Origin: Thalassotalea psychrophila
GTDB lineage: Bacteria > Pseudomonadota > Gammaproteobacteria > Enterobacterales > Alteromonadaceae
Assembly: GCF_031583595.1 (NCBI RefSeq)
Contig: NZ_CP134145.1
Coordinates: 2,976,001-3,040,000, forward strand
Reading direction: 5' to 3'
Length of the DNA stretch: 64,000 nt
Made by a program: the position numbers and the translations under genes. This document shows, in pieces, positions 13,435 to 45,092 of the stretch. Numbering within the stretch: the first letter of the stretch is position 1; each line of letters starts with the position of its first letter. The notes beneath the pieces are model-generated. The model made no database searches. It worked only from the letters and a program-made list of their open reading frames with translations, and was not told where the DNA came from.

Positions 13435-14805
13435 TTAGAATACTTTACTTTCAACAATCCTGCGTTTACCCGTTTTTTTAACCTGATATAGGCTGTTATC
13501 CAAAAGTTTATATTGTTCATTTAAACCAAGTGAATCACTTAAAACTAAGTACGAACCACTCACACTTACTTCTCCAACCGTATCAAAATGATTATTTAAA
13601 ATTTGTTGCTGTAATTTTTCAGCAACTTTTTTTATACCTGTCACGCATGTATTTGGAAGAATAATTAAAAACTCTTCCCCGCCCCAACGGATAACTACAT
13701 CAGTATTTCTCAAGCTGGCTTTCAAGAACTCGACAAACTCTATCAACAGTTTGTCTCCAATATCATGGCCAAAGTGATCATTTACTTTCTTAAAATCATC
13801 AATATCAATAAACAGCAAAGCACACTGTTGCCCTTTGTACTTTTTTAGTTTCTTCTGTTTGGCAATGAATTTTTTAGAATATTGCCTGTTAAAAGCATTT
13901 GTTAACGGATCTGTGAATGCGGCTATTTTTAAGTTTCTATGGATAAACTTCAATATCACTAAGTAAATAATGATTAAGGTTAATATGCACAAGCAGACTA
14001 TAACAGCCATCACAAGGTACTTATTCTTTTTTTCTGGAGGAGCATTATAAAGCCATTTTTTTAGCAACTTTTGATGTTCAATTTTACTGATACCATCGAT
14101 AGCTTTATTTATTTCAGGTAATAAATGCTTTGCCTTATCGCTAAGTACAACTCTAATATTAATTTTATTTGACGATATGCCGCCAATTTTAATGTTTGAA
14201 TAACCATCGCTAACTATTTTTGTGCTTAATACCGGTAATATATCAATTGCACCATCAATCTCCCCATAAGAGAGTAACTCTAATGCATGATAGGTATCCC
14301 TTACCTTAACAATTTTAATTAACGGGTAATTTCGCTCAATAAAATCACGAGCACTCTTGTTCTCACCAATCGCAATTTTTTTTCCAGCGAGAAAGGAAAA
14401 ATCTGAAACAAAAGGAGAGTTGGTATTAACTGCCAAAGCTAATGGAAATGAAGTTATTTCTTTCGAATAGTTTAAGTTTTTAAATTCACTATCATCAGTA
14501 CTTGCTCCGCCCAAAGAAAAGTCAGATTCATTATTATTTAATTTAGTTAAGACTTGACGCCAATTATCGGTTTTGACGAGATGATATTCGAGGTTTGCCT
14601 TAGAAAACATCAGCTCAAGATAATCTAACTTAATGCCAACTAGGTTTCCTTGCGGATCACTCATGTTAAGTGGCGCCCAATTATCGTTGATAATCGCTTC
14701 GTACGAATCTACCGTCGGCTGTGCATGCAAGCCTAAAGAGAGAGAAAAAAGTGATAAAAACATTAAGTATTTTAACATAACGAACAAGTAATAAAATTGG
14801 AACAA
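13435..14805 (-). CDS. periplasmic-sensor diguanylate cyclase (SBP_bac_3 + GGDEF)
   Basis: 456 residues. A signal peptide (to about residue 28) is followed by a type-3 solute-binding domain (about 33-252), a membrane segment at 262-287 and a GGDEF domain at 295-456. The active-site loop is intact as GGEEF at 375-379, with an RxxD product-inhibition site (RNTD, 366-369). It should therefore make cyclic di-GMP in response to a periplasmic small ligand. An alternative start is Met10, which gives a cleaner signal peptide. It sits alone between rpsO and truB, where the gammaproteobacterial operon normally has no gene. Confidence 0.9.
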   Translation of the reverse strand: MFQFYYLFVMLKYLMFLSLFSLSLGLHAQPTVDSYEAIINDNWAPLNMSDPQGNLVGIKLDYLELMFSKANLEYHLVKTDNWRQVLTKLNNNESDFSLGGASTDDSEFKNLNYSKEITSFPLALAVNTNSPFVSDFSFLAGKKIAIGENKSARDFIERNYPLIKIVKVRDTYHALELLSYGEIDGAIDILPVLSTKIVSDGYSNIKIGGISSNKINIRVVLSDKAKHLLPEINKAIDGISKIEHQKLLKKWLYNAPPEKKNKYLVMAVIVCLCILTLIIIYLVILKFIHRNLKIAAFTDPLTNAFNRQYSKKFIAKQKKLKKYKGQQCALLFIDIDDFKKVNDHFGHDIGDKLLIEFVEFLKASLRNTDVVIRWGGEEFLIILPNTCVTGIKKVAEKLQQQILNNHFDTVGEVSVSGSYLVLSDSLGLNEQYKLLDNSLYQVKKTGKRRIVESKVF

Positions 14806-24327: not shown

Positions 24328-24816
24328 TTATTCTGCAACAGTATACTTGGCAAGTTGCTCATCACTTTCCATAACTTCGAACATTGTTTGTACAACATGC
24401 TCTGTAGTTACGTCTTCAGACGGAAACATTTTATCGAAGTTATCATGCATTGAACGTTTAAAGTTTGCACGGTCTTGCTCTTCAACACCTATTGATACAG
24501 CAACAGCGGTAATTGCTTCACCATCACCACGAGCAACATCTTCGGTAAACTCATCCATGATCAAACTAACGTCGATCATCTCTTTACCACCGTACGTTAA
24601 TGTACCTTGAGTAGAACAACCGTTAGTACCAAAAGTCATACCAAATGTATTGTTAAACGTTGAACCGTTTGTAAATGAAGCGACAATATGTGGTGCAGTA
24701 CCTGATTGACCTTCAAATAACATATTACCCCAACCACAATTCGCACCACCAGGAGCGACGGCCATTGCTGAAGAAGAGGCGGTTAAAAGTACTGCTGAAA
24801 TTAAAATCTTTTTCAT
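24328..24816 (-). CDS. DUF3015 family exported protein
   Basis: 162 residues. A clear signal peptide (MKKILISAVLLTASSSAMA) is followed by the DUF3015 opening GGANCGWGNMLFEGQSG and the GTNGCSTQGTLTYG cysteine motif. The family is common in marine gammaproteobacteria and of unknown role. Own promoter region upstream and terminator downstream, so it can be expressed alone; the DUF4105 gene follows on the same strand. Confidence 0.85.
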   Translation of the reverse strand: MKKILISAVLLTASSSAMAVAPGGANCGWGNMLFEGQSGTAPHIVASFTNGSTFNNTFGMTFGTNGCSTQGTLTYGGKEMIDVSLIMDEFTEDVARGDGEAITAVAVSIGVEEQDRANFKRSMHDNFDKMFPSEDVTTEHVVQTMFEVMESDEQLAKYTVAE

Positions 24817-25061
24817 AATTATTCCCTGTTAACTTTGGGTTGTCGTTAAGTTTTTACTTTACAAGCATATGATTCTCATCATAAAAACTACTTTCCGGTA
24901 AGCAGTTAAATTAACTGTAGTACAAATTTTCAATTTGTGTAAAAAATAACTTAAAATCAATAACATTTATTGATTATCAAACTCATTAAATTTGATGCAT
25001 TTACACAGAATAAAATTGGGACACTATACTTAAAGAATTAACATATATTTAAGGAGATTTT

Positions 25062-25286
25062 ATGGACGTTCAACTTTTAGTTACCCAAACTGATTTTTGT
25101 ATTCCCAACCTCGAATGCGAGTTACAAAATGTTGGAGTCGATTATCATATTGATTATGTTGAGTCTCACCCCGAACTCGTTAATGAATACAACATCAAAC
25201 ATTCCCCAAATATATTTGTAGACGGCAAACTTGTATTTCGACATCAACCAACCATAAATGAATTACAAGATTATTTTGGTAATTAA
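25062..25286 (+). CDS. small thioredoxin/glutaredoxin-fold protein
   Basis: 74 residues with an ideal ribosome site (AAGGAGATTTT-ATG). The order is beta (VQLLVTQTDFC), helix (IPNLECELQNVGV), beta, then a cis-proline strand HSPNIFVDGKLVF and a last helix, i.e. a minimal thioredoxin fold. The active site reads CIPN, so the second cysteine of CxxC is missing; a further Cys lies three residues later (LEC). It may be a monothiol redox protein or a non-redox relative. Confidence 0.65.
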   Translation: MDVQLLVTQTDFCIPNLECELQNVGVDYHIDYVESHPELVNEYNIKHSPNIFVDGKLVFRHQPTINELQDYFGN

Positions 25287-25439
25287 TGTATTAAAACAGT
25301 TTCAAAGGTATTTTATAGACTGTAAAAGCGAGTCATCTAGATGAGTCACACTAACAAGTTTTAATATTATATTGGTAGCTTAGCTAGCTGAATTTTGAGA
25401 AATCATCAGATGACGCAGAAATGACGCCGCTCGCCGTGC

Positions 25440-25472
25440 AAATAATTAACTTAAGTAATAAGTTAATTATTT
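25440..25472. repeat. long AT-rich hairpin between the convergent genes
   Basis: AAATAATTAACTTA (25440-25453) and its perfect complement (25459-25472) form a 14-bp stem with a 5-nt loop. It lies between the rightward thioredoxin-fold gene and the leftward RCC1 lipoprotein gene, so a bidirectional terminator is the simplest reading. There is no G/C core, hence moderate confidence. Confidence 0.5.
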
Positions 25473-25576
25473 TCTGTCTATTGCTAAACATTTCTGCTTT
25501 GCTTTGTGAATCACTTACTGTTTCCTGACATTCTCAAGTACTAGCTGACATATATTAATGCTATAAATTGTTGTCT

Positions 25577-28288
25577 TTATCGTAAATCTACATAAGGCAA
25601 GTTAACGCCCATTTCTGGGTTAGGTAAACCATCACCTAAATAATCACTTTCAAATGCAGGCTGACCCATTTCACCATATTCGTTGTATCCCCAACATTTA
25701 ACGCCACCGCTTTCAAAGATGACACAACTTTGATAACCGCCCATAGTAATATCGACCACTTTATCTATGGTTCCAAAATCAATGTAATCTGCTAGGGCAA
25801 CAGATCGTTCTGGCGCATCACCGATATTAAAAGCACTGTCAGCTCCACCTGTTTTAGAATAACCCCAGCACTTTACTTTGCCGATATTTACTAACGCACA
25901 AGCATTATAATAATTAGCGGCTAGCTTAATAACCTCTTCATTAACGCCTAAATCAACAGTTGGTAAGCCATTGCCCATTTCGGCATAGTCATTACCGTAT
26001 AATCCGTAGGCCATTTTTATTCTACTATTGCCCTCGTAACTTAAGTCTTGTTCCACATAGGCGATAAGTTCATCGGTATCACAGACGAGCTCAGTTGTGA
26101 TTATTTCGCCATCTTCTAGGATGCCATTATCGGCAATACCTGAGGGAGCACCATCATCTTGGCCATATGCTAACTGAAAGCCTTTATTAGCCAGTGATGT
26201 TGGACAAAGGGTTAAGCCATCGTTACCAGTATTTAATGATTTGATGTCATATACCGATTCATTGGCAATATACACACTACGCGCATAGGCATCTTCATGG
26301 CCATTACCTCTAGATTCAGTATCACTTATACCTAATTGACCATCAATATTTTGGCCCCAGCACTTTATCCGATTATCATTAGATAAGGCACATTGAAAAT
26401 GATAACCAGTCGCCACGGCTATCGCATGAAAATCGCCTAATAAAACAAAACCTAAGTTGTCGCCCATTTCACCGTCATCATCACCAAAAACCTGTTCAGG
26501 ATATCGCTCTCCCTCACCCAAGCCTAAACCGCCATAATTATTTGCGCCCCAACATTTCACGCCACCATTATCTAGTACCGCACAGCCATTGCGAGAATTA
26601 AATGCCATAGTCGTTGCTTTGTAAGGTTCTAACGTATCCGGATTAGTGCCTAAATCTATAGGTAATAAATTATTCCCCATACTCTCTGCTGTTAAACCAA
26701 TATCGGTGTCGGTAGCAAAACCAAGGGAGGTTGCATTATGATTTCCCCAACATTTGATGCGCCCATTATTTAATAGTGCACAGGCACTTGATGAGTCTGC
26801 TAGGTGTATCTCGGTTGCATATAGGCCATCGCCAAAGTCCACAGGTATTAAAGCGTCGCCTAATTCACCTTCAGTCAACACATCTCCAGGGGCGCCTTTA
26901 CCCAATTGGCCATTATTATTACTTCCCCAACAGCGCGTTGTCTGGTCAGCAAAGATTCCGCAGCCAAAGCTATCTGCGACATCAAATGCGAGTAATTCAC
27001 TATTGGGCAATATTGCAGGTAGTAGCGCAGCGCCCATTTCATTTGTGCTTAAGTCGCTATCATCATTGCTATCTTCGCCCCAATAAAAGGCGTAAGCACC
27101 CTCATTACAATTTTCTGACTCTTCTACTTTAGTGGTTGTTATTATTTGATCATGTTTGCTCGGGCAATATGTATCGCTACCGAGGGCTGTATCATTTCCT
27201 TGCTCAAACCATTCAACGATTTTAGGAGCATAATAGTCGCCACACGGGCTTAACGGATCATCAGAAACGACAAAAGTGATCACCTGTTCAGTACTACTTT
27301 TACAAACCTCAAAACGTTGCTTCGCTTCACCAAAGCTTTCGCCAATTTCTTCAAGTAAGCCATTACCATGAGCACCATCGTTATAGCCAAAACAACGTAG
27401 TTTTCTATCATCTCCAGTATAAGCACAGGTATCATATAAGCCTGCAGCAAGCTTAAAGATAGCAGGCGAAACACTCACTGTACGCGTGCTAGAAACAGCG
27501 ACATTGCCAGCGCTATCAGAAACCTCATAGGTCAGTAAATAATCTCCTGCCACTGTGGTATTAACATTACCAGTTACTGTCGCGGTTAAGCCAATATCAA
27601 CATTATCAAATACCCTACTACCTGGATCGACAAAGTTATCACCAAAGGGGTGAGTAATAGAATCATCGCCAATTAGCGTGATCTCAGGTGCAGTCATATC
27701 AGCGACAGTCACGGTACGTGTTAAAGTCTTTGCCGAGTTGCCTGAGGTATCAGAGACCGAATAAGTTAGAATGTAGTCGCCAACAGTCAAGGTATCTATA
27801 GTACCAGTAACGACAGCAGTTAAACCGGTATCGACATTATCTGTGACCGTCACCCCAAGGTCAGTAAAGGTTTCGCCCTGAGCCACTAATGTAGCATTAT
27901 CGCCAATAAGAGAAATAACAGGTGCTGTCATATCAACAACGGACACAGTACGTGTAATCGCTTCTGCCGCATTTCCTGCAGCATCTGTGACATTATAAGT
28001 AAGGGTGTAATCTGCAACGTCTAAAGAATCTACTGTTCCAGTAACAATAGCGCTTAAGCCCGTATCGACATTATCAGTTACCGTCGCCCCTGGATCATTG
28101 AAACTCGCTCCGTGAGCAACAATCATAGGGTTATCACCAACTAGCGTGATTAAAGGGGCTGTCGTATCCGTGGTAGTTCCACTGTTCTTGTTTTTACTAT
28201 CCTCGTTTCCACTGCTATCACCACCACAGGCAGTCAGAGACAATAGGAATAAAGATACGATGAATTTAGTTCTCAAGCCATAAGGCAT
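25577..28288 (-). CDS. lipoprotein with DUF5011-type Ig-like repeats and RCC1-like repeats
   Basis: About 903 residues from the chosen start. That start (ATG at 28288, MPYGLRTKFIV) is preferred to the upstream ATG at 28324 because it has a CTGGAG ribosome site and aligns with the start of the neighbouring lipoprotein. The lipobox is LTACGG. Three tandem Ig-like DUF5011-type repeats (each with TAPxIxLxGD and ExFTDxG cores) occupy about the first 280 residues. Then come seven RCC1-like blades, each ending in C(W/F)G, with extra cysteine-bearing loops resembling DUF7151 insertions. Probably outer-membrane surface exposed and a binding protein. It shares its operator and promoter with the next gene upstream. 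Confidence 0.8.
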   Translation of the reverse strand: MPYGLRTKFIVSLFLLSLTACGGDSSGNEDSKNKNSGTTTDTTAPLITLVGDNPMIVAHGASFNDPGATVTDNVDTGLSAIVTGTVDSLDVADYTLTYNVTDAAGNAAEAITRTVSVVDMTAPVISLIGDNATLVAQGETFTDLGVTVTDNVDTGLTAVVTGTIDTLTVGDYILTYSVSDTSGNSAKTLTRTVTVADMTAPEITLIGDDSITHPFGDNFVDPGSRVFDNVDIGLTATVTGNVNTTVAGDYLLTYEVSDSAGNVAVSSTRTVSVSPAIFKLAAGLYDTCAYTGDDRKLRCFGYNDGAHGNGLLEEIGESFGEAKQRFEVCKSSTEQVITFVVSDDPLSPCGDYYAPKIVEWFEQGNDTALGSDTYCPSKHDQIITTTKVEESENCNEGAYAFYWGEDSNDDSDLSTNEMGAALLPAILPNSELLAFDVADSFGCGIFADQTTRCWGSNNNGQLGKGAPGDVLTEGELGDALIPVDFGDGLYATEIHLADSSSACALLNNGRIKCWGNHNATSLGFATDTDIGLTAESMGNNLLPIDLGTNPDTLEPYKATTMAFNSRNGCAVLDNGGVKCWGANNYGGLGLGEGERYPEQVFGDDDGEMGDNLGFVLLGDFHAIAVATGYHFQCALSNDNRIKCWGQNIDGQLGISDTESRGNGHEDAYARSVYIANESVYDIKSLNTGNDGLTLCPTSLANKGFQLAYGQDDGAPSGIADNGILEDGEIITTELVCDTDELIAYVEQDLSYEGNSRIKMAYGLYGNDYAEMGNGLPTVDLGVNEEVIKLAANYYNACALVNIGKVKCWGYSKTGGADSAFNIGDAPERSVALADYIDFGTIDKVVDITMGGYQSCVIFESGGVKCWGYNEYGEMGQPAFESDYLGDGLPNPEMGVNLPYVDLR

Positions 28289-28315
28289 AAATAACTCCAG
28301 ATTTTGCTTATAATT

Positions 28316-28321
28316 TTTATA
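28316..28321 (-). promoter_or_regulatory. -10 box for the RCC1 lipoprotein gene
   Basis: TATAAA on the minus strand inside TTTGTATAAA. The equivalent box (TATAAG, 31252-31247) lies at the same distance from the operator of the neighbouring lipoprotein gene. The matching -35 would touch the operator, as expected for an activator-dependent promoter. Confidence 0.55.
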
Positions 28322-28342
28322 CAAACTGTATTCGAGGGATAT

Positions 28343-28379
28343 AAATATTAAAGCAAGGAAATATGCAGGAAATATGCAG
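28343..28379 (-). promoter_or_regulatory. operator copy 1: 11-bp direct repeats
   Basis: On the minus strand two perfect TGCATATTTCC units in tandem are followed by TTGCTTTAATATTT. The centre lies about 50 bp upstream of the predicted start site of the RCC1 lipoprotein gene. 11-bp tandem repeats are how OmpR/PhoB-type regulators bind. The 37 bp are identical to copy 3 at 31724-31760. Confidence 0.75.
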
Positions 28380-28454
28380 TTTCAATAAAACCTTAATTAA
28401 AACGATTAGTTAAGGCTAGTATCCAGCACCATTCCAATTCTGATTGGGCCATAA

Positions 28455-28486
28455 AATGCGGTTGATGAATCAACATCAGCCGCATT
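28455..28486 (-). terminator. possible terminator after the Ig-repeat lipoprotein gene
   Basis: Hairpin AATGCGG/CCGCATT with an inner TGATG/CATCA stem, about 110 bp after the stop at 28599. The T run is short, so this is a tentative terminator. Confidence 0.45.
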
Positions 28487-28598
28487 GTTAATACCAAGTG
28501 CATATAGGGTGTCGTGAATAGCAGACAGTTAAATGGACTGTTTTTTCTCGATGCTGTGTCCCTAACGAAAGTCTCTAATTGACTCTGATGGCTTTAAG

Positions 28599-31217
28599 TT
28601 AATCAATATCTGGAAAATAAGTATCTGTCCATTCATCATTTGTACATACGCCATAGGGTTCATTAACCAGTCCTAAGCCATTACTACTGTATTCTTCTGG
28701 ATGATAAACACTGATAATTACCGGTACATACCCTACTTGGTATTTTTCCTCTGGTTGTACTAATTGTGCAGGATCTATTTTTGCTAGGTGAAATGATTTA
28801 TTGTCGGAATCACCAATGTCGCTGTAGTTTATGACCACTGGATTTTCTGGGTTTTTAGTAGAACTGCCATTAACGCTCACATGCAGTTGCTCAATATAAG
28901 ATTGAAGTTCATCTAAATACTCATCGGTATAAGTATCTGGAAAATTTTGCTGTGCAGTTTTCATCGCGGGTTGTTCATTAAACTTAAACCACACGTAGGT
29001 AGCTATGGCGCCATTTTGCAGCACTGTTTGGTAGCGTTTTTTGCCCGTTACATCCCAGTTTTTAAAGTCCGGATGACTGGTATCGCGCTCTTTATAGTTG
29101 TTAAACTTATGGCTTACTTTTGGCGCTCTTACAATATTGTCTGGCGACTCCACAATCTCTGTCTTATAGCTATGGGGGTGATTTTTGTATTCATCACCAG
29201 CATAATCTTCAACTTCCCATTTATCAGAGAGTTTTCTAACATATAGGTAGCCATTTTCGCTTCGTTGTTTTGCCTCAATAGCTGCATCTGAAAAATCCCA
29301 GTCAACAAAGCCTAAGGAGTTTTCATAGCCAACTTCATATGAAGGCTCAATCATATGGAAATGCTCTTCACCATTAATTTCCTCAACTAGCTTTAACTGA
29401 TTATGGGTACTTTTGTAAATAGAAGAGAAATCCTTCGCTACGGTCGGTATTAAGGTGTTGGTTAATGAACCTTGCTTTAGCGCAATGGAATAATCTTCCA
29501 TGGTCGTTTGTTTAATACTCTGTGGATAAGCAAGTAAATACTCGCGCTCTTTATGGTTAGGTAAATTAGCAACAGGAACGTAATAAGTATCATTCCCTAG
29601 TGCCAGTGCAGACAAGCCTATTCTTTCATTGCCATTACCAAAATTAGGTTTTGAGCCCATGGTTGCAAACGTACCAAACTGGTCCCCGGCTTCATTTCTT
29701 CGCCAGGCATAACTGCCTTCAGCAATTTTCTCGGGGTCTATCCAATTAAAATGTTCTGGTATATAGCCATTGATTGGTCCTTGGTAGTCGTAAGACTCAA
29801 TAAAACTCAGCCAAAATTTAAAGTCCCGAGGGTGGTCTAAATTAAGATAAGACCAACCTGAGCCAATCCAAATACCATTGTCATCATGATATGGCGATTG
29901 TTCTTTATCAAAACCAATATTCATTCCTGGTACTGTTAACACTTTGTTTGAAATTTGCAGTAGCGTTAACCATTTGTCGCCTAACACAACATCGTAAAGG
30001 CCGCCTCCCATACTAACGTCATTACACGCGTAATAAGTATCGCCAATGCCTGCTAAGTGAAGGGTTGGATAATAATGGGCGCCAGAAGTTTTTGGATTAA
30101 CCCATAAGCCACCTTCAATAGAATTGTTGTCATAAGAATGTAACCACGAGCCAAATATGCCAAATTGTTGCCCATTTTCTAAACCATGTTTGAAAGCATG
30201 ATATACACGATTAAAAACAAATTTCCCCGCCCCCTGCTCTTCAGTAGGTTCGTGACCTAAGCCTTCTAATTGCCCGACAACTGAAGTTGTCGACTCAAAA
30301 TATTCAACATTCTCAGGGGCCTCAGGTGTTGAAGAAGGAACTTTGCTACCATGGTAAGCATCAATTGAATAGGTAGAAACATTTACATCAACTGAGCCTG
30401 TAGCCTCTCCCCGCTCTCCTTGGCAAGTTAAGTTATAAGTTCTTTCACCAAGGGTTGGCTCACTGATTGATGCCGTACCAGATGTTGCTTTAGTGCCACT
30501 CCAATCACCACTAGCAGTACAAGATATAACCTCTGTCGAAGACCAAATTAAAAAGTATGTCACTCCAGCAGGAGCTGATTCTGTGGAAGACTCTACGGTT
30601 ACTGATAGAGGTGGAATTGTTAACACCACTTCAACACTTTCTGAAGCATTTCCGCCAGAGCCTGAGCACTCTAGAGTATATTTTTTCTCACCCGCCATTG
30701 CATCGGTAAAAGACTCGGTACCTGATGCGGCTTTAATGCCAGACCAATCACCACTAGCAGTACAAGAAGTTGCATCTGTTGAAGACCAAGTAAGGGTGTA
30801 AGTATCGCCTGTTAATGCTGAATAAACCGAAGATTCTACTGTTACGGTTGGCAAAGGGCTTATTACTATTACATCAACACTTTTTGAAGTACTTCCGCCA
30901 GAGCCAGAGCAGTCTAGAATATAATTTTTTTCACCTGTCATTGCTTCGCTTAAAGTCTCAGCACCTGACGTTGACTTAATGCCAGACCAATCACCGCTGG
31001 CAGTACAGGATGTTGCATCTATTGAAGACCAAGTAAGGGTAAATTCTGTTGATTTATAAACATCGTTCGTCGAGGATGACAAAGTAATCGAAGGTTTTGA
31101 AACAGTAGGCGGTTGAACGGTTTTATCGGTTGAATCTGAACCACTCCCCCCACCACAAGCAGTAAGGAAAAGTATCGAAAGATAGGCGATGAATTTAGCT
31201 CTCAAGCAATTAATCAT
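28599..31217 (-). CDS. lipoprotein with three cysteine-paired Ig-like repeats and an unknown large C-terminal domain
   Basis: 872 residues. Lipoprotein signal MINCLRAKFIAYLSILFLTACGG, then three repeats of about 85 residues, each with a TWSSxxATSCTASGDWSG core and a second Cys (CSGSGG or CQGERG), at roughly 45-290. The remaining 580 residues are rich in Trp, Tyr and Gly with no recognised family. The last part is acidic and ends with FPDID. Ig-like repeats suggest a surface-exposed stalk carrying a ligand- or substrate-binding head. The promoter, ribosome site and first 25 codons match the RCC1 lipoprotein gene, although the mature proteins differ. Confidence 0.75.
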   Translation of the reverse strand: MINCLRAKFIAYLSILFLTACGGGSGSDSTDKTVQPPTVSKPSITLSSSTNDVYKSTEFTLTWSSIDATSCTASGDWSGIKSTSGAETLSEAMTGEKNYILDCSGSGGSTSKSVDVIVISPLPTVTVESSVYSALTGDTYTLTWSSTDATSCTASGDWSGIKAASGTESFTDAMAGEKKYTLECSGSGGNASESVEVVLTIPPLSVTVESSTESAPAGVTYFLIWSSTEVISCTASGDWSGTKATSGTASISEPTLGERTYNLTCQGERGEATGSVDVNVSTYSIDAYHGSKVPSSTPEAPENVEYFESTTSVVGQLEGLGHEPTEEQGAGKFVFNRVYHAFKHGLENGQQFGIFGSWLHSYDNNSIEGGLWVNPKTSGAHYYPTLHLAGIGDTYYACNDVSMGGGLYDVVLGDKWLTLLQISNKVLTVPGMNIGFDKEQSPYHDDNGIWIGSGWSYLNLDHPRDFKFWLSFIESYDYQGPINGYIPEHFNWIDPEKIAEGSYAWRRNEAGDQFGTFATMGSKPNFGNGNERIGLSALALGNDTYYVPVANLPNHKEREYLLAYPQSIKQTTMEDYSIALKQGSLTNTLIPTVAKDFSSIYKSTHNQLKLVEEINGEEHFHMIEPSYEVGYENSLGFVDWDFSDAAIEAKQRSENGYLYVRKLSDKWEVEDYAGDEYKNHPHSYKTEIVESPDNIVRAPKVSHKFNNYKERDTSHPDFKNWDVTGKKRYQTVLQNGAIATYVWFKFNEQPAMKTAQQNFPDTYTDEYLDELQSYIEQLHVSVNGSSTKNPENPVVINYSDIGDSDNKSFHLAKIDPAQLVQPEEKYQVGYVPVIISVYHPEEYSSNGLGLVNEPYGVCTNDEWTDTYFPDID

Positions 31218-31246
31218 AAAATAGTTCCAGAAATTAAATTATTTTT

Positions 31247-31252
31247 CTTATA
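31247..31252 (-). promoter_or_regulatory. -10 box for the Ig-repeat lipoprotein gene
   Basis: TATAAG within CTTGTATAAG on the minus strand, 21 bp downstream of operator copy 2 and equivalent to the box of the RCC1 lipoprotein gene. Confidence 0.5.
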
Positions 31253-31272
31253 CAAGCGGTATTGGAGGTATG

Positions 31273-31309
31273 AAATATTAAAGCAGTAAAATGTGCAGGA
31301 ATTATGCAG
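31273..31309 (-). promoter_or_regulatory. operator copy 2: 11-bp direct repeats
   Basis: A diverged copy of the same operator: TGCATAATTCC and TGCACATTTTA in tandem, then CTGCTTTAATATTT. It sits upstream of the Ig-repeat lipoprotein at the same distance from the -10 and start codon as copy 1. Confidence 0.7.
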
Positions 31310-31405
31310 GCGTTTGATCAAAGGCAGGATAAAATCAACTCATCCCTGTTTGTAGGGATAGTGAATAGAATCATCGAAAGACTTCATTTATCTTCCTTAA
31401 CATAT

Positions 31406-31681
31406 CTATTTAGCTTTAGTCATTTTATCCATTAAACGTTCAAACTCTGCAAACTTTTCCCTAAGCTGCTGAAACGCCCGATCGTTATTTTCATACATCC
31501 CGTCTTCTATTGCTTCTATTTGCATTTTTATAACAGATAAGGGGGTGCGTAATTCGTGAGCTACTTTATTAAGAAACTGAATTTTCGCTAACTCAAATTG
31601 CTCATTGTTTTTAGAGGATTTCTCCTTTTTATTCACCTGAGTGCTTTGACTACTACTTGCCCGTGTCTTATTTTTTTGCAT
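31406..31681 (-). CDS. stand-alone HisKA (DHp) mini-protein
   Basis: 91 residues. After a Lys/Ser/Asn-rich, probably unstructured first 27 residues it is only a histidine-kinase dimerisation domain, with H-box VAHELRTPLSVIKMQ (His42) and its partner helix AFQQLREKFAEFERLMDKM. No ATPase domain, sensor or membrane segment follows; the stop is genuine. The domain closely matches that of the kinase at 32512-33855 (LRTPL..IKMQ.EA.EDG is shared). It has its own operator copy 43 bp upstream. A kinase remnant is possible, but the intact frame and promoter argue for a functional partner, phosphotransfer or inhibitor protein. Confidence 0.7.
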   Translation of the reverse strand: MQKNKTRASSSQSTQVNKKEKSSKNNEQFELAKIQFLNKVAHELRTPLSVIKMQIEAIEDGMYENNDRAFQQLREKFAEFERLMDKMTKAK

Positions 31682-31723
31682 GAAAGTTAATGTTTAAAAT
31701 AACGCATTGAATTAAAAGATAGT

Positions 31724-31760
31724 AAATATTAAAGCAAGGAAATATGCAGGAAATATGCAG
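31724..31760 (-). promoter_or_regulatory. operator copy 3: 11-bp direct repeats
   Basis: Identical over 37 bp to copy 1, upstream of the HisKA mini-protein gene and just downstream of the response-regulator stop (31809). Identity over 37 bp in otherwise unrelated intergenic DNA shows selection or recent duplication. Confidence 0.75.
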
Positions 31761-31808
31761 GTTTAATAAAAAGTCTTTAGGGTATGTTGCAAGATCAACA
31801 GCCCCTAA

Positions 31809-32483
31809 TTAAACGATGGGTTCGAATTTATATCCAGCCCCATAAATAGAGCGGATTAAGTCATGTTCTAGGGGAAGTTCTTTCAATTTTTTGCGTAGAT
31901 TTCGAATGTGGCTATCTACGGTTCGGTCGTTCACATCTCGATAATCTTGATAGACTAGGTCCATAATGAGAGCACGGGAATATATACGGTTGGCATTCGA
32001 GTAAAGTAGGTTAAGTAAAGTAAATTCTAAAGCGGTTAACTGAATTTTTTCATGCTTATAACTGACGGTAAAATCTTCTGAATTAACCTGTAAACCTTCA
32101 GGTATAAATGGTTGTTTTGTCACTCGCCGCAAGTTAGCTTTTACCCGGGCGATTAACTCTTTAACACTATATGGCTTACAAACATAGTCATCTGCACCTA
32201 GTTCAAGCCCTACCAGGCGATCGACCTCTTCAACTTTTGCGGTAGTCATAATAATAGGAATATCAGAAAAACCTCTGACTTCCTTACAAACATCGACACC
32301 GCTTTTAGTCGGAAGATCTAAGTCCAATAAAATCAGTGCGGGTTCATTTTCTTGAACCCATTGCACAACCTCTTTGCCATCAGCAAACCATTGGGTTAGA
32401 AAATTTGCGGCTTGTAGATACATGATAACTATTTCAGCAATTTCACTATCATCTTCTACAACGACCACCGTTTGCTTATTCAT
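31809..32483 (-). CDS. OmpR-family response regulator
   Basis: 224 residues. Receiver domain with acidic pair DD (11-12), phospho-acceptor Asp54 in LILLDLDLP and Lys in TTAKVEE. The C-terminal winged helix ends with DRTVDSHIRNLRKKLKE and IRSIYGAGYKFE, as in OmpR/PhoB regulators. Lies 28 bp after the kinase gene, so they form one operon. It is the obvious candidate to bind the nearby 11-bp direct repeats. Confidence 0.93.
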   Translation of the reverse strand: MNKQTVVVVEDDSEIAEIVIMYLQAANFLTQWFADGKEVVQWVQENEPALILLDLDLPTKSGVDVCKEVRGFSDIPIIMTTAKVEEVDRLVGLELGADDYVCKPYSVKELIARVKANLRRVTKQPFIPEGLQVNSEDFTVSYKHEKIQLTALEFTLLNLLYSNANRIYSRALIMDLVYQDYRDVNDRTVDSHIRNLRKKLKELPLEHDLIRSIYGAGYKFEPIV

Positions 32484-32511
32484 TATTTACGATTATCCAA
32501 AAAGCCGATCA

Positions 32512-33855
32512 CTAAAAGGTTACTTTCGGCAGTTTAACAATAACGCTCAAACCGCCCAAATTAGAATGCCCCGCACTAACTGTACCGCCATGGGCTGTGA
32601 TAATAGAGTTTACAATATAAAGGCCTAACCCTGAACCACTCTTAGCAAGGTTTTTGCTATTTTCCGCTCGATATAAACGATCAAATAAATGCTCTAAATC
32701 TTTATCGAGAACCCCTGGAGAAGTGTCCTCGAAAACGATTGTCACATCATCATTGTCAGCGGACATTGAAACATTAATCTTTCCATGCGGGTCGGTATAA
32801 CGTATTGAATTTTTGAGCAAATTATTAAATGTTTGAAATAGTCGCCCCGCATCAGCATTGACGGTGACTTTTTCTTCTGTGCTATCAATATAATTAATAG
32901 AAAGCTGCGCTTTACTGGCTAACGGCTGAAATGACTCTATTGACTCTCTCATTAAAGAATTAATTATAATATCTTGCTTATTGAGTACCAATGACCCCGA
33001 TTCAACCAGCGAAAGCTGATAGAGATCACCGACCATATGGTTAAGGTTTCCAAGTTTGTTTTGCAATGAATTATAGGACTTTTCACTATGCTCTAACGCA
33101 CCATCTTCTAGTGCTTCAAGTTGCATTTTGATATTTGCTAATGGCGTGCGTAAGTCGTGGGTTACATTGGCCAGCATGCTGTTTTTTTGAGCCATCAGCT
33201 GGCTAAGTTTTTCTGAAAGATCTGAAGACAACATAAATACTACAAATAAGCCCATGGCAATAAAGGCTGCTGGTAAAGTAACAAAATTCACCATAATGTA
33301 CATTTCTTTTAAACTTTCATGATTGTTTTCACCTTGCATTAAAGCAAGAGTACCTGCTAATGCTTGCATTAAAGCCAGTAATATATAGGAGGCAGAGGCT
33401 CCCATTTCAGCGGGCATGGTCTTTTTGGGTTGTTTTAAAATAATCATCCCACATAAAAATAAAATAACTGAATTATAAAATACATAAATTGACATGCTTA
33501 AGCCTACATGATGCTCAATTTTAGTGAAATAAAAAGTCATTAATATGGCAATGAAGCAACTACCAAATAAATAATTAAGGTTGAACTTAGTTTGACTACG
33601 AAGAATATGACCCCAGGTACCTAAAACAACAGATAGAACAGATAGACTACATACGATCATCCAATATAGGGTATGTGAATCAAAAGAGACTTTATTAAGA
33701 TTGAAAATACGTTGTAATACTATGACTAAAAAAGTAATAGTCCAAATCAATGAGTACTTTTGTTTCCCCATTGTGCGCCAAGCGGTATAAAATATAATAG
33801 CCAAGGTCGAACTAGTTATAAGTAGGGTAAGCTCGATAAAAAATATTGCATCCAT
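32512..33855 (-). CDS. membrane sensor histidine kinase
   Basis: 447 residues. The first 210 residues hold about seven hydrophobic segments with little periplasmic loop, so the sensor is the membrane bundle itself. HisKA follows with His233 in NVTHDLRTPLANIK, then a HATPase domain with NLLKNSIRYTD (N box), DTSPGV (G1) and GSGLGLYIV (G2). All catalytic boxes are intact. First gene of a kinase-regulator operon, with a 5' region of more than 100 bp. The signal cannot be told. Confidence 0.9.
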   Translation of the reverse strand: MDAIFFIELTLLITSSTLAIIFYTAWRTMGKQKYSLIWTITFLVIVLQRIFNLNKVSFDSHTLYWMIVCSLSVLSVVLGTWGHILRSQTKFNLNYLFGSCFIAILMTFYFTKIEHHVGLSMSIYVFYNSVILFLCGMIILKQPKKTMPAEMGASASYILLALMQALAGTLALMQGENNHESLKEMYIMVNFVTLPAAFIAMGLFVVFMLSSDLSEKLSQLMAQKNSMLANVTHDLRTPLANIKMQLEALEDGALEHSEKSYNSLQNKLGNLNHMVGDLYQLSLVESGSLVLNKQDIIINSLMRESIESFQPLASKAQLSINYIDSTEEKVTVNADAGRLFQTFNNLLKNSIRYTDPHGKINVSMSADNDDVTIVFEDTSPGVLDKDLEHLFDRLYRAENSKNLAKSGSGLGLYIVNSIITAHGGTVSAGHSNLGGLSVIVKLPKVTF

Positions 33856-34157
33856 AAAAACTCTTTCCCTTTTACCTGTCTTGTATGTTTTATTAAAATA
33901 AATAGCAGCAGGCTTAAGTACAACTTCTTTTCAGTTACAGTCATTATCATTACTTTATCGAGATAAAACAACAGGGTAGAAGATAAATAATAATTATACG
34001 CATTTGCTTAAAAACAACTGCAAAAAATTTAGTAAGTAGTTATACGTTTTAACCATTAGAAATGGGCATATATTTGTTCAACTTGCTATTAGATACAGAA
34101 AGTAAAAGAAGTAACAATATCTTGAATATCACACTGTTTAGGCAAGTTACAGACATA
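33856..34157. other. non-coding region upstream of the kinase operon
   Basis: No credible gene is seen. A minus-strand TATAAT at 33998-33993 may be the -10 of the kinase operon, but no good -35 accompanies it. No copy of the 11-bp-repeat operator is found here, so the kinase operon does not look autoregulated through it. Confidence 0.4.
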
Positions 34158-34183
34158 AAAAAACCTGCTTAAAAGCAGGTTTT
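34158..34183 (-). terminator. terminator, probably the original one of tRNA-Leu
   Basis: AAACCTGCTT/AAGCAGGTTT with a T run on the minus strand. It directly follows the tRNA 3'-end copy at 34188-34210, as the native tRNA-Leu terminator would have before the island separated them. Confidence 0.7.
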
Positions 34184-34187
34184 ATAA

Positions 34188-34210
34188 TTTTGGTGCTATG
34201 GAGAGACTCG
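34188..34210 (-). repeat. attL: displaced 3' end of tRNA-Leu
   Basis: TTTGGTGC plus TATGGAGAGACTCGA repeats the 3' end of the tRNA gene at 45006-45029 apart from one missing G (tRNA sense: one C lost from the acceptor stem). Similarity stops right after. It is the leftover target end created by site-specific integration. Confidence 0.85.
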
Positions 34211-34265
34211 ACTTAAAGAGCTAACGCACTGTTAAATAAATATTTAACAAGTTACAATTCAAACC

Positions 34266-34290
34266 AGTACTACTTATAGTACTACTAAAA
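34266..34290. repeat. left-end integrase arm-type repeats
   Basis: AGTACTACT (34266-34274) and AGTACTACTAAAA (34278-34290) in direct orientation. The same 13-mer occurs at 44886-44898 near the other end of the island, which is expected for integrase arm-binding sites. Confidence 0.6.
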
Positions 34291-34378
34291 AAAAAAGTCA
34301 TCTGCATTTTGTAGTCATTGATCATCGTCAGCGAATGTTTACATATTCAGAATTTAAACGATACTTCGAATAGATTAC

Positions 34379-35932
34379 TTATCGCTTAGCGCACCTTTTT
34401 ACTGCCACAATAAAATGCCAGGTAAATATTAGAAAAAACAAATGAAATAATAGCGTAACAAACTCCATACCTTCTTTTAAAAATCGCCCATAAGGCGGTA
34501 TACCGCTAGCGAATTTATTCAACTGAGATGATAGTTTCTCAATAAAAGCAATGTTGTTATTACTTAAATATTTGTAAAGCAAATTACTTTCATAACCCAA
34601 AACTAATAGATAATAAATGAACGCACAAGCTAACAACAAAGAAAAAGGCCTCCCTATACTTGAGCCAAAGTTAGATACTTTTTCATTGAACCATAAAATA
34701 AACCATTCACTAGATTCAACTTTAAAAGCTTTTAACTCTTCTTTATATTTACGCATTTCATGTGAATAGTATTTATTTGCCTCAATCTGATTGCCTATTT
34801 TATCAAATGAATGTTTAATTATTCGATATGTTTCACGATCAGTATTTTCATCACCGATTACAGCATTTAAGAAGTTAGGAGACTCTTTTAGGTTGGTATG
34901 CTCAAGAGAAAGTCCATTAAAAAAGGTTGCTTTTCTAAAATTTGTAAAGCTCATAAAGGTTACATATTCAAATTCAACCTTAGCAATAGTTTTATCTTTT
35001 TGATCTCCAAAGATGCACTTTTCAAACCCTGTGAAATCATCAAAAATACTTTTTGAGGCTTTAAATAAAGTGTAGGAGCTCTCATACGCATCAAACAAAC
35101 CTTCAAAATTAGTATTCGTTATTCTTGTTTCTCTAATAATATTATGTTTTAACTCTACTTTCTTTTTAAAGATGGAATCTTCAATCAATAGTGAACTCAA
35201 TGAGTACTGATTGAATTTAAAATTAACATTAATAACGCTATCTTTTATATACAACGCCAATACTTTGACTATAGGCTTTCGAGGATGGTCATAGTCTATG
35301 AAGATTTGACTTTCTATTTGTACCTTTTCAATATGAATGGGCCTCCTAAACTTACAATCCCCAAAAATAGGGCTACGATAAATGGCTCTCGGCTTATCAA
35401 AAGCAGTTTTAATAAATACAACATCACTCAAAAACTCACAGTTTTGGTAAAGCACATCTGATTCACCCTCTAAAAGTTCAGCATGATTTGAAATGGTGTA
35501 TTCTTCATGAAACAAACATTCAAAAAATTGAACTCTAATATTCTTTAGATCAACCTGTTGTGTTGTAAAATCACATTTTCCAAATTGAACTCTCTTAAGT
35601 CTATTTAATAGATGCAAAAAATGAGAAGAATCTTGAACGCTATATTCAGGAAAAAATACCCCATTAATAATAGTTATTGAATTTTCTAGTCTATTTTCTA
35701 TTATTTCATTATCTTGTCCGGCTAAATACTCTCTAAACTGATCAAAACTCACACCTGAACTACGATAATTACTTTGAAAATCAGCAAAGAGATATTGAAT
35801 AAGGATAATATAAAAATCATCTAAAACACCACTGATTTTATCGTCTTGATATTTTCCCTTAATACAATGTAATGCACATTTATCATCATAAGCTCCTTCT
35901 AAGTTACAACTATCAATCAAGCACTGACCCAT
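34379..35932 (-). CDS. pentapeptide-repeat-like protein with two C-terminal membrane segments
   Basis: 517 residues. The middle (about 110-370) has degenerate pentapeptide-type coils, many of the form NxxF or CxF (GKCDF, ECLF, QNCEF, GDCKF, TNTNF, EKCIF), predicting a right-handed beta helix. A charged helical segment follows (DRETYRIIKHSFDKIGNQIEANKYYSHEM, in parts). Two hydrophobic stretches lie near 428-447 and 488-508. The N-terminus is Cys-rich (CLIDSC, CALHC). AT-rich cargo gene at the left end of the island. A membrane-acting effector is one possibility; no function is known to me. Confidence 0.6.
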   Translation of the reverse strand: MGQCLIDSCNLEGAYDDKCALHCIKGKYQDDKISGVLDDFYIILIQYLFADFQSNYRSSGVSFDQFREYLAGQDNEIIENRLENSITIINGVFFPEYSVQDSSHFLHLLNRLKRVQFGKCDFTTQQVDLKNIRVQFFECLFHEEYTISNHAELLEGESDVLYQNCEFLSDVVFIKTAFDKPRAIYRSPIFGDCKFRRPIHIEKVQIESQIFIDYDHPRKPIVKVLALYIKDSVINVNFKFNQYSLSSLLIEDSIFKKKVELKHNIIRETRITNTNFEGLFDAYESSYTLFKASKSIFDDFTGFEKCIFGDQKDKTIAKVEFEYVTFMSFTNFRKATFFNGLSLEHTNLKESPNFLNAVIGDENTDRETYRIIKHSFDKIGNQIEANKYYSHEMRKYKEELKAFKVESSEWFILWFNEKVSNFGSSIGRPFSLLLACAFIYYLLVLGYESNLLYKYLSNNNIAFIEKLSSQLNKFASGIPPYGRFLKEGMEFVTLLFHLFFLIFTWHFIVAVKRCAKR

Positions 35933-35985: not shown

Positions 35986-37080
35986 TTATTTATCCATCAT
36001 TTTTTTAATTGTTGCTTCAATTGCAGCCTGCACTTCGCAGCTTTGATCTACTTTAGGCATACTTAGATTTTTAATCAATTCAGCTTGTCGATAATCAGGA
36101 ACATCACCATAGCTATTAAAAGTTGTTAGAACCCCTTCATGCCCTAAGTTCTGACTCCATGCTTTAAACTGTTCAGGTGTTCGGCAAATGTTCTCTCCTA
36201 ACCTTACCAAAGTATTACGAAAACTATGAGGATTATAATTTGGCAAATCAACATGTTGAAAAGCTTGTTTGAATATTTTTCGTATCGGGTCAGCTGTTTT
36301 CCAATGTTCGCGCAATAAACCTGTAGCTTCAAATTTACGGTTTTTATTATTTTCAATTTTGGTTTTTGGAAAAAGAGGATCGTCTGCACTGAATAATAAC
36401 TCATTGGTTAAATACTCAATCCATTCTTTTAAAATAGTTAACGGTAATTCGCCTACGGGAAAAAAATACGTAGTAAACGTTTTGCTGTACTTGGTGTTAA
36501 CTTCTCTTGCGTCTTGATAAATACTACCCTCGGCTATGCTCACGTGTTTTATTTTTAATGAAGCTATTGCACTATCTCTTGCACCGGTTAATAAAGTAAG
36601 TGCTATAACCGCCCTATTTCGTTTTTCAATATCAGTACGTGCTGGCATGTTTTCAAGTACATGAGTAATTTGCTCTATGCTTGGTACTGGCTTTTTTCGT
36701 TTAGCATTGGCGATACGAGCATCTTTTTCAGATAAATTAAAGTATTCCATATCACTGTAATTAATCTGTGATTTATAACCAGGTTGTAACGCTAGCCATT
36801 GAAAGAAGTTCTTCAAATGTCGCAGTGTTGTATTTAAGGTTGCCTTGCTTAATGGTTTTCCCGTAAATTCATTTTTTTGCTTAATGAGGTTATTTTTAAA
36901 GCCTACCGCTTGTTGGTAATGAAATTGTTTAAAATCTTTATATTTAGTGTACTGCTCAAGTCTATTTATAGCTTTTACCACACCATCAATTGAAGCTACA
37001 TTTTGACGTTTCGCCTCTTTTAAAAAAATACAATACTTATGGCTAATTCTTACATTGTTTGGGTTGTGTGTTTTCATCAT
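35986..37080 (-). CDS. site-specific tyrosine recombinase (second integrase)
   Basis: 365 residues from the chosen start. The first ATG of the frame (37125) lacks a ribosome site, while AAGGTGA precedes the double ATG at 37080/37077. A SAM-like core-binding domain is followed by the catalytic domain with Arg in LTGARDSAI, the HSFRN box, LGHEG and the tyrosine in TFNSYG. It is not P4-like and has no DUF4102 arm, so it differs from the integrase at the right end. It follows the HTH/zinc protein in an AlpA-led operon. It may move an inner element or act on its own sites. Confidence 0.85.
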   Translation of the reverse strand: MMKTHNPNNVRISHKYCIFLKEAKRQNVASIDGVVKAINRLEQYTKYKDFKQFHYQQAVGFKNNLIKQKNEFTGKPLSKATLNTTLRHLKNFFQWLALQPGYKSQINYSDMEYFNLSEKDARIANAKRKKPVPSIEQITHVLENMPARTDIEKRNRAVIALTLLTGARDSAIASLKIKHVSIAEGSIYQDAREVNTKYSKTFTTYFFPVGELPLTILKEWIEYLTNELLFSADDPLFPKTKIENNKNRKFEATGLLREHWKTADPIRKIFKQAFQHVDLPNYNPHSFRNTLVRLGENICRTPEQFKAWSQNLGHEGVLTTFNSYGDVPDYRQAELIKNLSMPKVDQSCEVQAAIEATIKKMMDK

Positions 37081-37125
37081 TTCACCTTGTCTATTTAAAG
37101 TACAATTCAGGAAGGGTTTAGCCAT

Positions 37126-37557
37126 CTAGCTTATGTGTTTTTGTTGTATCGGCAATATCACAGACAGATCACGCTGAATTGACGTAATATTTTCCAATTT
37201 GAAATATTTATTCATCATTGATGTACACACAGAACAGGCGGCAATCACCCTCCCTCTAGTATCTGTTTCTTCTAAAAATTCAATGGTACTTTGCTCGGGT
37301 AACCTCGGCTCTCGACATTTAAAACAATAAAGCTCATATGGCTTACATGTGCGCTTATTCATTCCCCTTTGATGTATTGCAAATTGTTTTAATTCAGTAC
37401 CTAAAATAAGTATTGGTCGTTTGTTATCACAAACCTTTAGCCCCTTAACAATCCAGTTTCTGATAGTGCGCTTATGAACACCTAGAAGTATCGCAGCTTC
37501 TTCAACGGTGTAACTTCGGTGAATTTTGCATATATTTGGGTTAATACGCTTACTCAT
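37126..37557 (-). CDS. HTH plus zinc-ribbon small DNA-binding protein
   Basis: 143 residues. An excisionase/MerR-like helix-turn-helix (YTVEEAAILLGVHKRTIRNWI) fills residues 16-36. A zinc ribbon has CxxC pairs Cys78/81 and Cys108/111. It overlaps the alpA-like gene by 4 bp (ATGA) and leads into the recombinase gene, so the three are one operon. Probably a directionality or regulatory factor of the recombinase. Confidence 0.7.
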   Translation of the reverse strand: MSKRINPNICKIHRSYTVEEAAILLGVHKRTIRNWIVKGLKVCDNKRPILILGTELKQFAIHQRGMNKRTCKPYELYCFKCREPRLPEQSTIEFLEETDTRGRVIAACSVCTSMMNKYFKLENITSIQRDLSVILPIQQKHIS

Positions 37558-37754
37558 ACTAGCCCCCTACTTTTACTTGCTACTATGCATCGTTCAAGCC
37601 ACTGATTAATGTCTTCTTCTAACCAGCCTACAGCTCTATCACCTAAAGATATTGATTGAGGAAATATTTGATTTTTCATACGTAGATAAATACTGCTTCG
37701 TGATAAACCAGTAAGTTCGATAACAGCAGGTAGGCGTAATATTTTGTGAGCCAT
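37554..37754 (-). CDS. AlpA-family regulatory/excisionase-like protein
   Basis: 66 residues, a single winged-helix HTH: ILRLPAVIELTGLSRSSIYLRM, then FPQSISLGDRAVGWLEEDINQWLE, the AlpA signature. AlpA activates excision or gene expression in P4-like and satellite elements. An 11-bp perfect inverted repeat lies just upstream and overlaps the likely promoter. Confidence 0.88.
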   Translation of the reverse strand: MAHKILRLPAVIELTGLSRSSIYLRMKNQIFPQSISLGDRAVGWLEEDINQWLERCIVASKSRGLV

Positions 37755-45005: not shown

Positions 45006-45029
45006 TTTGGTGCGTATGGAGAGACTCGA
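45006..45029 (-). repeat. attR inside the intact tRNA-Leu
   Basis: TTTGGTGCGTATGGAGAGAC and CGA beyond it, the functional counterpart of the attL copy. It spans the CCA end, the acceptor 3' strand and part of the T arm of the tRNA. Confidence 0.8.
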
Positions 45030-45092
45030 ACTCTCACGCCGTGAAGCACAGCCCCCTCAAGGCTGCGTGTCTACCAATTCCACCACATACGC
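45008..45092 (-). tRNA. leuU: tRNA-Leu (anticodon GAG)
   Basis: 85 nt with encoded CCA. Acceptor stem GCGTATG/CATACGC, D arm with GGTAGAC, anticodon stem CAGCC/GGCTG with loop TTGAGGG (anticodon GAG), a long variable arm and T stem GAGAG/CTCTC with TTCGAGT. It lies 23 bp after secG, as leuU does in E. coli, so it is probably cotranscribed with secG. Its 3' end is the island's integration site. Confidence 0.93.

Follow-up and report, generated by a model that had tools for sequence, protein, structure and literature searches.

Tandem 11-bp boxes of the BaeR type and a predicted local regulon with a DHp-only mini-protein in Thalassotalea psychrophila

Genes and tandem boxes of the cluster

The DNA analysed here, called the window, is a stretch of 64,000 nucleotides from Thalassotalea psychrophila (assembly GCF_031583595.1, contig NZ_CP134145.1, positions 2,976,001 to 3,040,000 of the forward strand). 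It contains a gene cluster in which a tandem 11-bp box occurs three times, before the genes of two lipoproteins and of a mini-protein made up of a histidine kinase DHp domain. The genes of a BaeR-like response regulator and a BaeS-like sensor kinase lie next to them. Most likely the three boxes belong to activator-dependent operator-promoters of the BaeR type, which the regulator encoded at 31809-32483 would control as a local regulon that may include a feedback scheme involving the mini-protein. Comparison of sequences makes the local regulon well supported, and binding of the regulator to the boxes is predicted. The features of the cluster are the following.

25577..28324, - strand: RCC1/Ig-repeat lipoprotein, 915 aa from TTG (likely start ATG at 28288), predicted target of copy 1; Pfam Bact_surface_Ig-like and RCC1_2
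28347..28352, - strand: -10 hexamer TTTAAT of copy 1, spaced by 24 bp relative to the C in the box's first CAT; 25-site alignment
28357..28379, - strand: tandem 11-bp box, copy 1 (C followed by TGCATATTTCC twice); sequence
28599..31217, - strand: lipoprotein, 872 aa, with Ig-like repeats according to a preliminary description of the locus, predicted target of copy 2; open reading frame
31277..31282, - strand: -10 hexamer TTTAAT of copy 2; 25-site alignment
31287..31309, - strand: tandem box, copy 2, diverged (TGCATAATTCC TGCACATTTTA); sequence
31406..31681, - strand: DHp-only mini-protein, 91 aa, predicted target of copy 3; Pfam HisKA 2.4e-09, ATPase domain not matched
31728..31733, - strand: -10 hexamer TTTAAT of copy 3; 25-site alignment
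31738..31760, - strand: tandem box, copy 3, identical to copy 1; sequence
31809..32483, - strand: BaeR-like response regulator of the OmpR family, candidate for binding to the boxes; Pfam, NCBIfam
32512..33855, - strand: BaeS-like sensor histidine kinase whose N-terminal membrane sensor part is otherwise found on GGDEF proteins; Pfam, NCBIfam

Copies 1 and 3 of the element consist of TGCATATTTCC twice followed by TTGCTTTAATATTT (28343-28378 and 31724-31759, - strand). They are identical over 38 bp (28342-28379 and 31723-31760), one more than the 37 bp given in the preliminary description, and this identity is the longest same-strand exact repeat of the window. A chance repeat was rejected, as in 50 Markov shuffles tested at lengths 14, 16, 18, 20 and 22 the maximum reached was the 18 class. 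The middle copy (31273-31308) differs from copy 1 in 4 of the 22 box bases and in 5 of 36 bases overall. The three places described before the lipoprotein and mini-protein genes were thus found, with a degenerate copy in the middle. The distance from the box centre to the start codon is 79.5 bp for the RCC1 protein with the ATG at 28288 (43.5 bp with the upstream TTG as start), 80.5 bp for the Ig protein and 67.5 bp for the mini-protein; the value of about 50 bp previously given for both lipoproteins has to be corrected.

The tandem is rare in the genome (4.81 Mb, one contig). When up to 3 mismatches were allowed, the 22-mer matched only its two exact copies. A degenerate tandem, TGCAYAWTYNCTGCAYAWTT, was built from the sites of the window and of Alteromonas sp. 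KUL49 (see below), whose 0-mismatch status is thus by construction. It matched three places without mismatch, all in the window cluster, and none with 1 or 2 mismatches; at 3 mismatches there were 42 matches vs 33 for the reversed-pattern control. The single 11-mer is not rare (nine exact copies). A matrix trained without the window gave scores of 34.9, 34.9 and 26.5 for the three sites and of at most 7.0 for any other place in the window, leaving the kinase-regulator operon of the window without a site. A common genome-wide motif was rejected, because the 22-mer and the degenerate tandem match only the window cluster at up to 2 mismatches; the scan proposed in the preliminary description, directed at a motif common in the genome and unlinked to this family, returned three tandem sites, all within the cluster, an outcome in favour of that description. 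If the interpretation is correct, this is a compact regulon of one regulator and three promoters, with a box found nowhere else in the genome.

The repeats might also be a mere byproduct of a recent local duplication of a promoter region, having no regulator of their own. The likeness of copies 1 and 2 extends into the coding region, the 5' ends of the target genes being alike when compared by eye; therefore these two copies are probably one duplication, which weighs against the regulon interpretation. However, copy 3 shares only the stretch from the box to the -10 and diverges beyond it (also compared by eye), and the same box with the same spacing precedes other secreted proteins in other genera and families. 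An origin as a byproduct is extremely improbable.

The regulator contains a receiver and a winged-helix output domain (Response_reg and Trans_reg_C, both above the gathering score). The preliminary description had called it an OmpR-type regulator, and it is indeed of the OmpR/BaeR type, with 274.8 bits against NCBIfam BaeR (cut-off 380). The kinase scored 209.8 bits against BaeS (cut-off 603) in its kinase part only; it has a DHp domain of its own, and a receiver domain was not matched on it. The RCC1/Ig-repeat lipoprotein has the lipobox LTACGG (read by eye), and the 872-aa lipoprotein gave no match in Pfam or NCBIfam at E 0.01. No linked resistance-nodulation-division (RND) efflux genes of the mdtABC kind were found among the seven neighbouring proteins scanned (24328-35932).

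Promoter architecture and recurrence of the box

Twenty-five sites from 10 regulator loci in nine genomes were aligned, with one place per promoter, no more than 3 mismatches and a gene start downstream. Places with 4 mismatches and places shifted by 11 bp were excluded, as were the 0-mismatch sites in G043 (two), G594, G690, G629, G674, G683 and G631 contig 23, where the stretch read contained no regulator of the subfamily. Two sites with 3 mismatches (L139 9436 and L151 13184) were retained for their position. The consensus was C T G C A T A T T Y N C T G C A Y A T T T. A hexamer occupies alignment positions 27-32 (T27 in 24, A30 in 19 and T32 in all 25 sites) and is often preceded by TG (T in 17/25, G in 16/25). 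The 11-bp register and the fixed -10 spacing across the sites correspond to a pair of direct half-sites, separated by one helical turn and followed by the -10. Since the hexamer stands at a fixed distance, TTGCTTTAATATTT, the second half of the repeated 38 bp, is an extended -10-like promoter element, and its assignment to the operator in the preliminary description was rejected. In copy 1 the hexamer is preceded by TGC, which is extended -10-like, and transcription is predicted to start at about 28340.

A scan of named genomes for relatives gave four loci, one of them from a close relative, Alteromonas sp. KUL49 (L041). Its kinase is 66-67% and its regulator 66% identical to those of the window, and the regulator is directly followed by a DHp mini-protein 40% identical to the window's. 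One tandem box lies between the kinase gene and that of a 100-aa secreted-looking protein ahead of the regulator; the second is found some 4 kb beyond, ahead of the gene for a secreted-looking protein of 250 aa. KUL49 had first come to notice in a search with the 22-mer of the window at 3 mismatches (chance 0.00). The two boxes are the only 0-mismatch places of that genome (matched by pattern construction); one further place, directly behind the regulator gene of a different BaeR-like pair, has 1 mismatch, and one, within a reading frame, has 2. The earlier statement that the kinase operon lacks the site therefore holds in the window but not in KUL49, where a site separates the kinase from the gene that precedes the regulator and the mini-protein.

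The sensor part of the window kinase (33238-33855, - strand) had no match in Pfam or NCBIfam and was present in 13 of 395 genomes of the family, the own genome included. The 12 others carry it on GGDEF-type proteins, not on kinases (by reading, the GGDEF-type end is GGEEF in 11; it is GSDEF in L138), and relatives were therefore sought through the kinase domain. An alignment of the two kinases, compared with 394 genomes of the order at E <= 1e-60, matched nine genomes including the own; two of the other eight were sensor-only matches. Pseudoalteromonas xiamenensis (L139) stood at the top of a plasmid search limited to 5000 records. Sets of kinase, regulator and mini-protein were found at L139, L151 and L152, and sets of kinase, regulator and second kinase at L153, L154 and L155. 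HisKA and ATPase domains are present in the first kinase of L139, together with propeller and Y_Y_Y domains, and in the second kinase of L153, together with MASE6. At all six loci a box precedes the mini-protein or second-kinase gene (3, 2, 0, 2, 1 and 2 mismatches, respectively), and additional boxes stand ahead of genes for large secreted-looking proteins. Six genomes selected by their kinase contained 34 places at up to 2 mismatches vs 3 for the control. In the complete alignment the box stood directly before the mini-protein or second-kinase gene at nine of 10 loci; in KUL49 it was before the small gene preceding the regulator and mini-protein.

When the pattern was scanned without mismatch over the 394 genomes, 18 sites were found in 11 genomes and none with the reversed control. 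One locus, L203 (G707 contig 75), was found from the DNA pattern alone. It encodes, in this order, a 729-aa kinase, a regulator of the subfamily (398.7 bits), a box, a 94-aa mini-protein, a box and a 650-aa secreted-looking protein; a third box precedes a 492-aa secreted-looking protein. L202, the second locus of G480, has three boxes, the regulator and, after it, a full kinase, and no first (propeller) kinase was found in the 20 kb read. Other 0-mismatch sites lie beside more distant BaeR-like pairs (G594 and G690, and G674 at a distance of about 10 kb), in the neighbourhood of a remoter regulator (G629) and before a secreted-looking protein on another contig (G631). The site in G683 precedes proteins resembling, by eye, the targets of L154, with no regulator in the stretch, and the two in G043 are away from any such pair, regulator or target.

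Kinase and box tended to occur in the same genomes. Among the 393 non-own genomes of the order, five were common to the eight with a kinase match and the 10 with a box (hypergeometric 1.8e-7), and with the six true kinase rows that remain after removal of the two sensor-only ones, three were common to both (2.3e-4); as the genomes are related, neither value is a true probability. In the 395 family genomes the exact 22-mer, with up to 3 mismatches allowed, matched 22 places outside the own genome, spread over 19 genomes, vs 10 genomes with one control match each. These places are mixed, some inside and some before genes, and form no footprint by themselves. A matrix trained with the tested locus left out ranked the listed sites at the top in all 11 loci; the lowest of these sites scored 17.3, and the best unlisted place 8.3. 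Related loci were not left out jointly, L155 in the test of L213 being the exception. The full matrix gave the 25 sites scores of 22.1 to 36.7. That related regulators of other genera and families are accompanied by the same box, ahead of genes of the same kinds, agrees with the local regulon proposed in the preliminary description.

Several observations weigh against this interpretation. L140, L150 (G647, regulator 44% identical) and L158 had no box at up to 3 mismatches in the stretches read, and the kinase-regulator stretch of L156 has a single place, with 3 mismatches. In L157 (regulator 55% identical) a place with 1 mismatch follows the regulator, and there is no mini-protein. The box of P. 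xiamenensis has 3 mismatches, and the 0.92-Mb record of this species gave 0 matches at up to 2 mismatches vs 3 for the control. At 70 other loci (250 kb) the best full-matrix scores were 19.5, 19.4 and 18.3, near the weakest listed site (22.1), several of the high-scoring places being runs of CTCCAT repeats at 11-bp spacing. These control loci are not random, since they were obtained as kinase or regulator relatives around BaeS-like kinases; one of them, L126, overlaps the window cluster, with copy 3 at its unscanned edge. Because their scores come so near to that of the weakest site, the box appears to be of a wider BaeR-type class and not private to the window system, and cross-talk is possible.

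Repeats of a similar kind were seen elsewhere. At other BaeS-like loci there are runs of 11-bp CTCCAT/CTGCAT-type repeats (L019 2899-2950, L021 2942-2990 and L017 3139-3190). In four genomes of one genus (L060-L063), CTGCATTTTTCTTGCAAATTTCC and further TTTCCT repeats stand about 150-210 bp before a gene that by eye is sigma-factor-like.

It was also considered that another BaeR-like regulator is the main one to bind the boxes and that the adjacent pair is a mere neighbour. The genome has 36 matches to the regulator, of which 14 (itself included) span the receiver and DNA-binding parts; the nearest paralogue, near 140 kb, is 50% identical and lies beside a 1061-aa kinase, and BaeR-type boxes are common to several subfamilies. 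However, the boxes adjoin the subfamily of the window regulator at 10 loci of nine genomes, and in the 20 kb around the paralogue the best matrix score was 8.8 (a CTCCAC/CTCCAT variant) vs 26.5-34.9 in the window. Control by such a paralogue is very unlikely. The sibling system (L252 10373-14281 and 14376) comprises a 222-aa regulator and the divergent 1061-aa kinase. The CTCCAC/CTCCAT tandem is located upstream of the kinase gene, and the gene of a large protein lies nearby at 15407. For the window regulator and its relatives, the distribution of the sites suggests rewiring of BaeR-type boxes to local surface-protein clusters.

Beyond the kinase (35986-37754), one gene resembles that of a tyrosine recombinase and two small ones resemble genes of DNA-binding proteins, all recognised by eye. 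The recombinase-like neighbour and the sparse distribution hint at a mobile island. The only tRNA gene found within 20000-64000 of the window was tRNA-Leu (45008-45092).

The DHp-only protein and a possible feedback

In the proposed scheme a signal at the membrane kinase would lead to phosphorylation of the adjacent BaeR-like regulator (31809-32483). The phosphorylated regulator would bind the tandem 11-bp box (CTGCATATTYC twice; about -38 to -17) as a head-to-tail dimer and replace the -35 contact upstream of the -10 hexamer. This would switch on the three promoters, those of the two surface lipoproteins and of the DHp-only mini-protein, and the mini-protein may then remove the phosphate from the regulator, closing a negative feedback loop. 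The boxes, their geometry, their restriction to this cluster within the genome and their occurrence next to related regulators elsewhere are read from the sequences; we infer the binding, the activation and the sign of the feedback.

Six members of the mini-protein family were found (window, KUL49, P. xiamenensis, G480, G485 and G707). A profile search of 345 genomes of the order at E <= 1e-14 matched six genomes, with true mini-proteins, already in the alignment, in four and longer kinases in two; the mini-protein therefore appears to be a rare but conserved third component. In the H-E/D-x-x-T motif the Thr at His+4 is present in all six members (Thr/Asn at this position is a phosphatase feature of HisKA), the His in five (Lys in KUL49) and the acidic residue at +1 in four (Gln in P. 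xiamenensis and G485). AlphaFold models of the window and KUL49 pair, as monomers, predicted a two-helix hairpin (H15-59 and H66-89; mean predicted local distance difference test score, pLDDT, 81.8; predicted template modelling score, pTM, 0.57), as would be expected for half of a DHp four-helix bundle.

According to the accessible part of PMC3510030, the acidic residue is required for the kinase reaction only and Thr/Asn for the phosphatase reaction only, the need for the His is variable, and the DHp domains of EnvZ and NtrB suffice for phosphatase activity. The residue pattern thus seems to fit an auto-induced stand-alone phosphatase, acting in negative feedback, better than phosphotransfer. 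A point against it is that DHp-only EnvZ in mammalian cells had no apparent phosphatase activity in the part of PMC8971529 that was available. We consider a role as stand-alone phosphatase of the regulator quite possible, and propose this step with reserve.

Two other functions were weighed. As a decoy or heterodimer partner, the mini-protein would dock on the regulator or pair with the DHp of the kinase, blocking it without catalysis. The Lys in place of the phospho-accepting His in KUL49, the dimerisation of DHp domains (PMC3510030, in the part available) and the bare helical hairpin of the modelled monomer are compatible with this, but the catalytic Thr, which a pure decoy would not need, is kept in all six members, and we regard such a role as rather unlikely. 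As a Spo0B- or HPt-like phosphotransfer station, it would relay phosphate between the kinase and either this regulator or a different one. The His of five members would suit this; the phospho-accepting His, invariant in a Spo0B- or HPt-like protein, is however lost in KUL49, the acidic +1 residue is Gln in two of the six, and the window kinase, with its own DHp, carries no matched receiver domain. Phosphotransfer is decidedly unlikely.

With the mini-protein as phosphatase, the locus would represent a three-component module with a thin distribution over several families of the order. A natural DHp protein made from the box of its own regulator would serve there as a dedicated phosphatase, and in sister loci a full membrane kinase would take the same place behind the same box. 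This wider proposal is more tentative still. The distinctive third part of the gene set would be the auto-regulated DHp-only protein, under control of the regulator on which it probably acts. Published reports disagree about the phosphatase activity of a DHp domain on its own, and with a natural protein the question becomes testable. No publication on DHp-only proteins or on this gene set was found by title or start of abstract in open PMC, which does not establish absence from print.

At three of the mini-protein loci an ECF sigma factor gene and a Ser/Thr kinase gene follow the mini-protein (L139 10035-13392, L151 5214-8838 and L152 5303-8606; families tested in L139, assigned by eye in L151 and L152). 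They are not among the genes of the window cluster. P. xiamenensis has the sigma factor and protein kinase genes twice (L139 9960-14965), and an open reading frame between the copies (13692-14165) is apparently a piece of a mini-protein C-terminus.

Comparison with known systems

The window system appears to be a BaeSR-like two-component system. Its regulator and kinase domain both score best against the BaeR and BaeS models, and the recognition helix of the regulator (DRTVDSHIRNLRKKL) is nearly identical to that of Escherichia coli BaeR (DRTIDSHIKNLRRKL), with conservative changes. CTNCAT half-sites with a -10 hexamer 24 bp on occur here, and the same arrangement may be present in E. coli spy (CTCCATAATTG) and mdtA (CTCCATTTTTC), where, in registers chosen by eye, CTCCAT half-sites are followed by TACACT exactly 24 bp after the C of CAT. 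The available part of PMC3799227 gives the BaeR consensus as TTTTTCTCCATDATTGGC, with CTNCA in common. Less favourable to the comparison are the poor second half-sites of spy and mdtA (CAA and CTT) and the preference of the matrix for other registers there, with weak best scores of 12.4 and 10.8. The window pair differs in its sensor and lies under the BaeR and BaeS equivalog cut-offs, on which membership of BaeSR proper was rejected, and its predicted targets are not efflux pumps but locally encoded surface proteins and a DHp mini-protein.

The pho box of PhoB (E. coli phoA) likewise consists of two 11-bp direct repeats in the -35 region, and the distance from its first CAT to the -10 (TATAGT) is the same as in the window boxes. 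The repeat is CTGTCAT there, in contrast to CTGCATA here, and a link to phosphate was neither looked for nor seen. A pure Pho box was rejected on the half-site and on the score of the phoA upstream region, which is below zero with the matrix.

The isolated DHp phosphatases of EnvZ and NtrB (PMC3510030, as far as available) resemble the mini-protein in having a DHp without ATPase domain and the H-E/D-x-x-T motif. Those are laboratory truncations, whereas the window has a natural gene with its own promoter; if the proposal is correct, it would be the natural version of these phosphatases, hard-wired as negative feedback on surface-protein genes. In RetS-GacS, an auxiliary kinase-like regulator provides another case of a kinase-derived protein that tunes a two-component system. 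RocA and RetS are larger membrane proteins, in contrast to the 91-aa DHp hairpin of the window. RocA, acting on CsrRS, is likewise a kinase-derived protein that tunes a two-component system (PMC6635533, in the part available).

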